From positions 558,001 to 622,000 of the forward strand of contig JAHJRQ010000015.1 of NCBI GenBank assembly GCA_018830485.1: a DNA stretch of 64,000 nucleotides. Reading direction: 5' to 3'. The stretch is from Pseudomonadota bacterium (GTDB taxonomy: Bacteria; Desulfobacterota; Desulfobulbia; Desulfobulbales; Desulfurivibrionaceae). Of this stretch, positions 21,055-31,732 are shown one piece after another; the first letter of the stretch is position 1; each line of letters starts with the position of its first letter. The position numbers were made by a program, and so were the translations under genes. Below the pieces are notes generated by a model. It was given only the letters and a program-made list of their open reading frames with translations. It searched no databases and had not been told where the DNA came from.

Positions 21055-21348
21055 ATGAAAATTCGTCCGTTAAATGATCGTGTCCTGATCAAAAGACTGG
21101 AGGAAGAGTTGAAAACCAAGGGTGGGCTCTTCATTCCCGACAGCGCCAAGGAAAAACCCGCCGAGGGCAAGGTTGTTGCCGTTGGCAAGGGCCGTCACAA
21201 CGAGAAGGGCGAGCGGGTTGCCGTGGATCTCAAGGTCGGCGACCGGGTGTTGTTTTCCAAATATGGCGGCAACGAGATCAAGATCGACGGCGAGGACTAC
21301 CTCATCATGCGTGAAGACGATGTGCTCGGGGTTGTTGAAGGGAAATAA
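21055..21348 (+). CDS. groES: Co-chaperonin GroES
   Basis: The 97-residue protein has the full GroES pattern: '[18 protein letters not shown]', the mobile loop '[16 protein letters not shown]', 'GKVVAVGKG' and the ending '[14 protein letters not shown]'. It forms the heptameric lid of the GroEL chamber. CTGGAGG precedes the ATG, and groEL follows after 74 bases. Confidence 0.98.
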
Positions 21349-27152: not shown

Positions 27153-27530
27153 TTATTCGTCATCCTCCAGATCGTCTTCCTCAAGCTCATCCTCCTCCTG
27201 AGCCTCGACCTCGTCATCAATGTCATCATCCTCGGTTCCGGAGTCATCATCTTCCGGCAGTTCATCGTCCGCCGAGGTGTCTGATTCCTCATCCGGTTCG
27301 GCGGCAAGGGCGTCTTCTTCCTCGCCTGTCGGCTTGCGGATTTTTGTCGGGGGCAGGATGATGGCCGTGATCTTTGCAATATCTTGTCGCACCAGCGGAT
27401 CTGCAAGACAAAAGGCACATTCGGCAATGTGCTTTTCCATGAAGGAAACCATGCGCGCCGGGGCCATGGACTCCTCCTGGACTTGGGCATACCATGATTT
27501 GACAAGCCTCTGTAAGCGCTCGCATTCCAT
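27153..27530 (-). CDS. Small acidic protein with HxxxCxxC motif
   Basis: From ATG 27530 (AAAGGAG about ten bases upstream) the protein is 125 residues. Residues 34-41 read H-IAE-C-AF-C, the HxxxCxxC pattern of zf-HC2/anti-sigma zinc fingers. The preceding helix (1-33) and following segment (42-66) could form a small helical domain. Residues 69-125 are almost entirely Asp/Glu. No membrane segment is present, unlike typical anti-sigma factors. I cannot name the family. The acidic tail could mimic nucleic acid or bind a basic partner. It is convergent with the SWIM gene. Confidence 0.65.
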   Translation of the reverse strand: MECERLQRLVKSWYAQVQEESMAPARMVSFMEKHIAECAFCLADPLVRQDIAKITAIILPPTKIRKPTGEEEDALAAEPDEESDTSADDELPEDDDSGTEDDDIDDEVEAQEEDELEEDDLEDDE

Positions 27531-27711: not shown

Positions 27712-27809
27712 GGAAGTGGAAAGGGCGCTGGTGGCTCTCCCGGACTTCAAATCCGGTGCACCGGGTTAACAGCCTGGTGGGTGGGTTCGATTCCCATGCA
27801 CTTCCGCCA
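27712..27809 (+). tRNA. selC: tRNA-Sec (TCA), selenocysteine tRNA
   Basis: A 98-base tRNA with anticodon stem CCGGA/TCCGG and loop CTTCAAA, anticodon TCA, which reads UGA. The acceptor GGAAGTG pairs with CACTTCC; there is a long variable arm (about 27757-27781), T-loop TTCGATT and a GCCA end, all as in bacterial selC. No selA, selB or recognisable selenoprotein gene lies in the window. Confidence 0.96.
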
Positions 27810-27890: not shown

Positions 27891-28766
27891 TTAGCTCTTC
27901 GTCTTCAGCAACGGATATCCCATCTTCTCCCGCTGGGCCACGAACTGTTCCGCCACCTTTCTCGCGATATTCCGTATTCTGCCGATATACCGGGTCCGCT
28001 CCGCAACGCTGATGGCCTTTCTGGCATCCAGCAGGTTGAAGGTGTGCGAGCACTTGAGGCAATAGTCGTAGGCCGGCAAAATCAGCTCCGCGTCCAGCAG
28101 CCGGTGGGCCTCGGACTCAAAGGTGTCGAAAAACGAAAGCAGGGCCGGCACATTTGCCTGCTCGAAGTTGAAGGTGGAAAACTCCACCTCGGCCTGATGA
28201 AAGATGTTGCCGTAGGAAACCTCGCTGTTCCAGGCGATATCGTAAACGGAGTCCACCTTTTGCAGATACATGGCGATGCGTTCCAGTCCGTAGGTCACTT
28301 CCACCGTGACCGGAGAGAGCTCCAGGCTTCCCGCCTGCTGGAAGTAGGTGAACTGGGTGATTTCCATACCGTCAAGCCACACCTCCCATCCCAGGCCAGA
28401 GGCGCCCAGGGTCGGGGATTCCCAGTCGTCCTCGACAAAGCGGATGTCGTGCTCCAGCGGGTCCAGGCCGAAGCGGGTGAGGCTTTCGATATAGAGATCC
28501 TGAATGTTGGGGGGGGACGGCTTGATCATCACCTGAAACTGGTAGTAATGCTGAAGCCGGTTGGGGTTTTCTCCATACCGGCCATCGGTGGGCCGACGCG
28601 AGGGCTGAACATAGGCGGTTTTCCAAGGCTCGGGTCCCAAAGCCCGCAGCAAAGTGGCCGGGTGGAAGGTGCCGGCTCCTACTTCCATGTCATAGGGCTG
28701 CTGCAACGCACATCCCTGCTGAGCCCAGAATCTGCTGAGCTCGAGAATGATATCCTGAAAATACAT
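27891..28766 (-). CDS. glyQ: Glycyl-tRNA synthetase alpha subunit
   Basis: From ATG 28766 the protein is 291 residues, the normal GlyQ length, beginning '[19 protein letters not shown]'. Class II motifs and family blocks are intact: '[16 protein letters not shown]', '[18 protein letters not shown]', '[20 protein letters not shown]' and '[15 protein letters not shown]'. It charges tRNA-Gly as an alpha2beta2 enzyme with GlyS. No glyS follows; the space downstream holds a repeat arm and selC, so the beta subunit must be encoded elsewhere. Confidence 0.97.
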
Positions 28767-29372
28767 GTGGGTTCCTTGGCTGGCCTTTGGGTAAGGCGAT
28801 GGTTTCCGTTCGTGCTCAGCCTGTTGAAGCACAAAAAAATGTGGAAGAATCTCAGGCCCTCAACCTTTAATACATAGCAAGCAGGGCTGGCAAGATTTTT
28901 TTACGAGCAACAAGGGAGATAGCCCGGCAGACAGGGGAAGCGGGGGGGCATGCCGGTTTTTTTCCGGAGCAATGGCGCGGAAAAATACAAGTGACCAGAG
29001 TGCTGCTGGCTGTATTTCTGAAGGAGTATTCATGTTTTACCCACTTTTATTTTGACAATGGGGTCAGACTGCGGTAACAAAGTACAAATCTTTATATTTT
29101 GTGGGCAATTGCGTTGCAAGCCCTCACTCCGGCGAAGGCCGGAGTCCAGTGTATCATAATTCCAGGCCTTCTGGATCCCGGCTTCCGCCGGAATGACGGA
29201 AAAAGGCTGACAGCAGTCAGCCACAAATGAGTTCTTGATCTTGCTTCCCAGTCTTTTCGAAAGGCGGGGAGCATTGAGCGAATGGTGGCATGTGGACGTC
29301 GCATGCCACTGCGAGGGAGGGGGTGGAGCAATCACCCTGAATTACCAAATATTTTCTTAAGGAGAAAATGAG
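28767..29372. other. 606-base intergenic region between glyQ and the porin gene
   Basis: No gene is supported. It contains a family A arm (28801-28833, CCGTTCGTGCTCAGCCTGTT), a TTGACA at 29052-29057 with a poor -10, and a family B palindrome at 29124-29198. The porin's ribosome site (AAGGAG) is just before 29373. The promoter could not be fixed. Confidence 0.55.
29124..29198. repeat. Family B palindromic repeat, copy 1
   Basis: CACTCCGGCGAAGGCCGGAG followed by TCCAG, then about 20 bases, then CTGGATCCCGGCTTCCGCCG and GAATGACG: inverted arms like the 31811-31870 element, with each arm itself a small hairpin. Confidence 0.7.
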
Positions 29373-31067: not shown

Positions 31068-31110
31068 CATGTAAGCTGTGGTTGACATCATGTAGTCTGT
31101 GGTATACACT
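31068..31110 (+). promoter_or_regulatory. Promoter and direct-repeat operator of the toxin-antitoxin operon
   Basis: TTGACA (31082-31087), 17 bases, TACACT (31105-31110). A direct repeat CATGTARnCTGTGGT occurs at 31068-31082 and 31089-31103, exactly 21 bases apart (two helical turns), bracketing the -35. This is what an autoregulated antitoxin operator would look like. Confidence 0.6.
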
Positions 31111-31412
31111 ATTCCCGTGACCACGATCAGCGAAACAGAGAATTTTTCCGCTTGGTTTGCCGGACTGCGCGATACGATTGCAAGGGCTCGGATCAAGGCG
31201 CGGCTGCGCTCTGTTGATCTGGGAAATTTTGGAGATTGCAAGCCGGTGGGAGAAGGTGTGTCGGAGATGCGTATTCACTGCGGGCCAGGATACCGCGCGC
31301 GTGTATTTCGTCCGGCGGGGTCTTGAGGTGGTGGTTCTGCTGGCGGGCGGTGACAAAGGAGCGCAGGACAAGGACATCAGACCGCTTTGAAGCTGGCGCG
31401 ACAGGTATAGGA
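31099..31412 (+). pseudogene. HigB/RelE-type toxin, frameshifted
   Basis: The reading frame from 31099 gives 'TISETENFSAWFAGLRD' through 'EMRIHCGPGYR', typical of the RelE/HigB 'addiction module killer' family. It then passes a (CG)4 run at 31294-31301 and the matching frame shifts: 'VYFVRRGLEVVVLLAGGDKG' is read one base over. Near 31381 the natural C-terminus 'ALKLARQV' returns to the first frame, ending at the TAG at 31408-31410. So two opposite frameshifts disrupt the gene. The promoter's -10 overlaps the GTG at 31099, and a start at GTG 31117 is more likely. It could also be a sequencing error in the CG run, but two errors would be needed. Confidence 0.7.
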
Positions 31413-31420
31413 GGAAAGCA

Positions 31421-31732
31421 ATGGGAAGCAAGATCGCTTTGCGCAAATGGGATGTGCTTGATCATCTGAAAACGGAAGAGGACATCGAACTGTATTTTGA
31501 TGCCTGTGTGGAGGAAGACCCAGGGGACGGAAGCCTGATCCGCGCCGCCCTTGGCGATATCGCTCGCGCCCGTGGTATGAGTCAGTTGGCCCGCGATACC
31601 GGTCTGGCTCGGGAAGGGCTGTACAAGGCGCTTTCCGCTCAAGGGAACCCGGAATTTGCCACGGTGATGAAGGTCATCAAGGCCTTGGGCTTGAAGCTCC
31701 ACGGCCACTCCACCACGACTTCCGCAGCGTAA
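31421..31732 (+). CDS. Addiction-module antitoxin (HigA-like HTH)
   Basis: The 103-residue product begins 'MGSKIALRKWDVLDHLKTEED' and contains the helix-turn-helix 'ARGMSQLARDTGLAREGLYKAL' (about residues 48-69), as in the 'probable addiction module antidote' family. AGGAGGAAAGCA precedes the ATG. It would bind and silence the partner toxin and repress the shared promoter. Its toxin partner upstream looks disabled, so this may be a surviving antitoxin or now just a regulator. Confidence 0.87.
   Translation: MGSKIALRKWDVLDHLKTEEDIELYFDACVEEDPGDGSLIRAALGDIARARGMSQLARDTGLAREGLYKALSAQGNPEFATVMKVIKALGLKLHGHSTTTSAA

Follow-up and report, generated by a model that had tools for sequence, protein, structure and literature searches.

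A selC gene for tRNA-Sec in a genome probably of the Desulfobulbales, with its decoding machinery, UGA-containing genes and a second UCA tRNA in relatives

A tRNA gene with the anticodon TCA and a long variable arm raises the question of whether its bearer decodes UGA as selenocysteine. We addressed it for such a gene in a 64-kb stretch of DNA, the window (C13:558001-622000), taken from a 2.89-Mb genome in 26 contigs that is 97.9% complete (G000 in our numbering).

The tRNA gene, its fold and its surroundings

ARAGORN reported a 98-base tRNA-SeC with the anticodon TCA at 27712-27809 on the + strand, one of four tRNAs in the 64-kb window; together with the sequence itself, this showed the position, strand, length and anticodon given in the first-pass annotation to be exact. 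The Rfam tRNA-Sec model (RF01852, gathering score 47) matched it with 71.1 bits (E 1.5e-12 in 64 kb, 1.7e-14 against the whole genome). Among the 12 matches listed genome-wide it was the only one above 47. The other 11 scored 30 to 42 bits, the best being a Leu tRNA with 42 bits; seven had loci, all of these being ordinary Leu, Ser, Arg, Gly or Pro tRNAs. The gene is thus confirmed as an ordinary selC, well supported and far beyond chance; it is of the known bacterial tRNA-Sec kind. Its parts and neighbors, in window coordinates, are as follows.

27153..27530, - strand: small acidic protein with an Hx3CxxC motif, divergent from selC; adjoins selC in 28 of 30 relatives' loci, several of which are short contig ends
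27712..27809, + strand: selC, tRNA-Sec (UCA) with encoded CCA (ARAGORN, RF01852, sequence)
27712..27718, + strand: 5' side of the acceptor stem, 7 Watson-Crick pairs with 27799-27805, 2 of them changing on both sides among relatives
27719, + strand: eighth acceptor position, a G facing G27798 in a non-Watson-Crick pair; the same in all 36 canonical selC rows of the order
27722..27738, + strand: D arm with 6 pairs, a 4-base loop and one bulged base
27747..27749, + strand: anticodon TCA within the loop CTTCAAA
27759..27779, + strand: long variable arm with 7 counted pairs, 3 changing on both sides
27781..27797, + strand: T arm with 5 pairs, the first G-U
27806..27809, + strand: discriminator G73 and encoded CCA
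27891..28832, - strand: glyQ, glycyl-tRNA synthetase alpha subunit, convergent with selC; adjoins selC in 25 of 30 relatives' loci, several of which are short contig ends

The fold was conserved among relatives. In an alignment of 31 selC genes, 22 of them distinct, all 660 counted cells paired (100%), six pairs changed on both sides, and none of 500 shuffles reached the observed pairing or covariation. The long variable arm, with seven pairs, is real and covaries among relatives. The gene resembles bacterial tRNA-Sec as modeled by RF01852 in its UCA anticodon, G73-CCA end, 6/4 D arm, long variable arm, 5-pair T stem beginning with G-U and score above the cut-off, but differs from it at the eighth acceptor pair, which is an invariant G-G mismatch in the order. 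The textbook tRNA-Sec has a 13-pair acceptor plus T stem (8+5); that of the window gene consists of 7 Watson-Crick pairs, the G-G and 5 pairs. Since the G-G is invariant in all 36 canonical rows (33 genomes, three of them read twice; six further aligned rows belong to another tRNA class), we regard it as the normal form of selC in the order, and in the same rows the pairs next to it change in a compensatory way. Acceptors of 7 pairs, most with a bulged base, have been described for tRNA-Sec of other lineages (Secmarker, PMC5330540), and the available portion of that paper does not name the present lineage among them. The order-wide G-G is a small structural point for modeling how SelB and EF-Tu discriminate tRNA-Sec from other tRNAs.

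In the search of relatives, 52 of 58 genomes, the present one included, had an RF01852 match above the cut-off, and in 51 of the 58 the match reached at least 68 bits; in one (G001), the sole match above the cut-off was a tRNA of a second, U73-bearing class, described below. One relative's genome carries a decayed second selC with a broken acceptor about 8 kb from the intact copy (G055:C16:67746-67840, L141). As for the neighboring genes, the closest named relatives of glyQ are from Desulfocapsaceae and Desulfofustis (80-82%), which makes Desulfobulbales the probable order of the organism. The start of the small acidic protein was set from the alignment at the ATG at 27530, the longer reading frame extending to 27587. 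It matched no Pfam family, it also bears an APARM motif, and its motif resembles, we presume, zinc anti-sigma proteins.

The anticodon, the length and the variable arm had been called diagnostic of selC. The identity held, but the word overstates the case, as UCA and a long variable arm are also found together in selC*-type tRNA-Cys, from which G73 and the Rfam score set the window gene apart. These tRNAs (Mukai et al. 2017, as covered in the available part of the review PMC7609411) occur in delta-proteobacteria and combine a Sec-like fold with U73 and an 8/4 stem that has a bulged A, and some of them have UCA. Relatives of the present organism also carry UCA tRNAs with a long variable arm, of two kinds: a pair of genes (L142 in G033, L143 in G029) with A1-U72, U73, UCA and a bulged T stem, which fits the published selC* tRNA-Cys, and the U73 class (L134-L140). 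The window gene could thus be suspected of being a tRNA-Cys of the selC* type, or an allo-tRNA that inserts a different amino acid at UGA. It shares the Sec-like fold and UCA with selC* tRNA-Cys but differs from the selC*-like genes by G73 in place of U73, and its T stem has 5 pairs and no bulge, in contrast to the 8/4 stem with its bulged A. As tRNA-Sec it reaches 71 bits, and both sequence and neighborhood make it an ortholog of the selC of relatives. We therefore consider such an identity highly improbable, and the presence of selA, selB and selD in the genome (see below) speaks against it as well.

Selenocysteine machinery and UGA-containing genes

The absence of selA, selB and selD would have told against the first-pass interpretation. 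Genome-wide searches found all three, each above its curated cut-off.

selA, C1:35868-37226: 616.7 bits, cut-off 267.9
selB, C14:15980-17875: 354.7 bits, cut-off 242.25
selD, C13:497401-498324: 380.1 bits, cut-off 125; one in-frame TGA

As anticipated from the window, selA and selB lie outside it and selC is unlinked to them, selA being on contig C1 and selB on C14; selD is on the same contig as selC, about 87 kb away.

UGA-containing targets were sought in four families (SelD, FlpD, FdhA and NiFe hydrogenase), so that what follows is a partial selenoproteome. In-frame UGA codons were found in SelD (AAGUAAKLSPG), in FlpD at C9:28820 (GGUQLGECHY) and in two formate-dehydrogenase-like (FdhA-like) proteins at C9:23485 and C9:42572 (HCARLUHAPTV), while none of the three NiFe hydrogenase matches in the genome had one. 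All four UGAs fall at the expected redox active-site positions, and all four genes are outside the window. As had been predicted, a gene caller of the ordinary kind would truncate or split such genes, and gene models for this genome will be interrupted at the UGA of selD, flpD and the two fdhA-like genes. Both FdhA-like matches were below the TIGR01553 cut-off, as broken pieces. The two UGA-containing fdhA-like genes, hdrA and the UGA-containing flpD form a cluster (G000:C9:20000-45000).

Rfam SECIS_3 matched over both fdhA-like UGAs with 56 and 54 bits (E 6.4e-11 and 2.5e-10), short of the gathering score of 63, and these scores may be partly owed to conserved coding sequence. The 48 bases following the UGA folded better than shuffles in selD (z -4.23) and no better than shuffles in flpD (z -0.18) or the fdhA-like genes (z -0.74 and -1.05).

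The components computed directly, namely, the tRNA gene, its covarying fold, selA, selB, selD, four UGA-containing targets and SECIS_3 matches at two of these, support the claim that the organism decodes UGA as selenocysteine, and they supply the genome with an inventory of SelA, SelB, SelD and targets. Their best joint explanation, which we hold to be correct with near certainty, is a single selC working as in other bacteria. Following the established pathway, its tRNA would be charged with serine by SerRS, the Ser-tRNA would be converted to selenocysteine by SelA with selenophosphate from SelD, and SelB would deliver the product at those UGA codons that precede a SECIS hairpin; expression of selC and the selenoproteins in this organism would be expected on the same grounds. 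That selC is instead a relic in a genome that no longer makes selenoproteins is harder still to believe than a tRNA-Cys or allo-tRNA identity: a simple scan revealed neither a sigma-70-like promoter nor a terminator for selC, but the fold is kept with compensatory changes, selA, selB and selD are all present, and four genes have UGA at active sites.

Search for selenoproteins in the window

Two approaches, family searches and a scan for conserved UGA, bore out the expectation that the window itself holds no selenoprotein. Its larger reading frames are mostly housekeeping and pilus genes, with no known selenoprotein family among them (Pfam, NCBIfam). The scan took 969 in-frame TGA candidates with at least 10 open codons on each side and compared them with DNA of three relatives (G008, G011 and G019), eleven stretches in all, which may not span the whole window; it yielded no acceptable sense-strand candidate. 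A spanning match was found for 825 of the 969, and 48 matches at 38 positions had third-position bias on both sides, a filter that the scan needs, since conserved DNA aligns in every frame and the unfiltered result cannot be interpreted. Thirty-seven of the 38 positions were antisense to a gene in a list of 47, most of them with a family match, and position 21197 was antisense to a groES-like gene at about 21058-21345, which we take to be groES. Among 25 weaker positions, 20 were antisense; the others, judged by eye, were inside a same-strand gene with poor alignment across gaps (22367 and 61229), antisense to tRNA-Met (23245), or in or antisense to short intergenic stretches (30975 and 32328). 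The window also holds a probable toxin-antitoxin pair at 31096-31732, with an HI1420-type antidote at 31421-31732 and, upstream of it, a presumably toxin-like frame that looks split over two frames.

A second UCA tRNA between hdrA and flpD in relatives

The second tRNA class is a lead about relatives and no result on the window; in the present genome, hdrA and flpD overlap directly, with no tRNA between them. Its members combine U73-CCA with UCA, a 7-pair acceptor (GACUGGA/UCCAGUC; 7/5 stem), a D arm like that of tRNA-Sec and a variable arm that covaries. The base preceding G1 varies (A, G, C or T) and therefore lies outside the stem. A search model built from seven sequences located the class at 20 places (E 1e-9 or better), spread over 18 of the 257 genomes of the order. 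Fourteen of these places, in 12 genomes, are between hdrA and flpD, and four of the 14 copies (L170-L172 and L180) show damage to the acceptor, the T stem or the CCA end. The other six are in genus g16, six genomes of which have a related U73 UCA tRNA with GACUGGU/ACCAGUC and neither hdrA nor flpD within the roughly 3-kb loci.

In all 7 aligned cases, the FdhA of the hdrA-tRNA-flpD operon bears a cysteine in place of the selenocysteine of the selenium form. Seven operons have both the tRNA and a downstream fdhA, but a strict link between the two was rejected, as an intact tRNA occurs without an fdhA match in the 3.1-kb locus at L167-L169. PADLOC gave weak matches only on the operon. No dedicated SelB was found in the nine of the 12 hdrA-flpD genomes searched (G001, G007, G010, G023, G047, G056, G213, G219 and G220), which had one SelB above the cut-off or, in G010 and G220, none. 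A dedicated CysRS was likewise rejected: all 17 genomes searched have two CysRS, including G000, G008 and G011, which lack the tRNA, and the duplication is thus uninformative.

A phylum-wide scan of 395 genomes turned up 13 places, in 11 of them, classed by sequence. Three were of the hdrA-flpD type and one of the g16 type, all already found, and seven read as ordinary selC genes ending in GCCA (L215-L221). The remaining two, in distant relatives (L213 and L214), have a GCA anticodon, U73 and unrelated surroundings; these forms support a cysteine identity of the second class.

The second tRNA resembles selC* tRNA-Cys in UCA and U73 and differs from it in its 7/5 stem and in having no dedicated SelB in the genomes checked. 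No description of it was found in the available portions of PMC7609411, PMC5330540 and PMC13188914, a scope outside which Mukai et al. 2017 itself lies. One doubtful proposal, to which we give a small chance, is that it is either a Cys-charged, EF-Tu-delivered second reader of UGA when the operon is transcribed or a tRNA-like regulator of the Cys-FdhA operon. Were it so, a UCA tRNA of cysteine identity encoded within an operon would set two amino acids in competition for UGA inside a single cell, which would matter more than selC. As for the two selC*-like genes of relatives, that of G033 is directly followed by a second SelB gene, and that of G029 lies near an AIR-synthase-type (SelD-like) gene.
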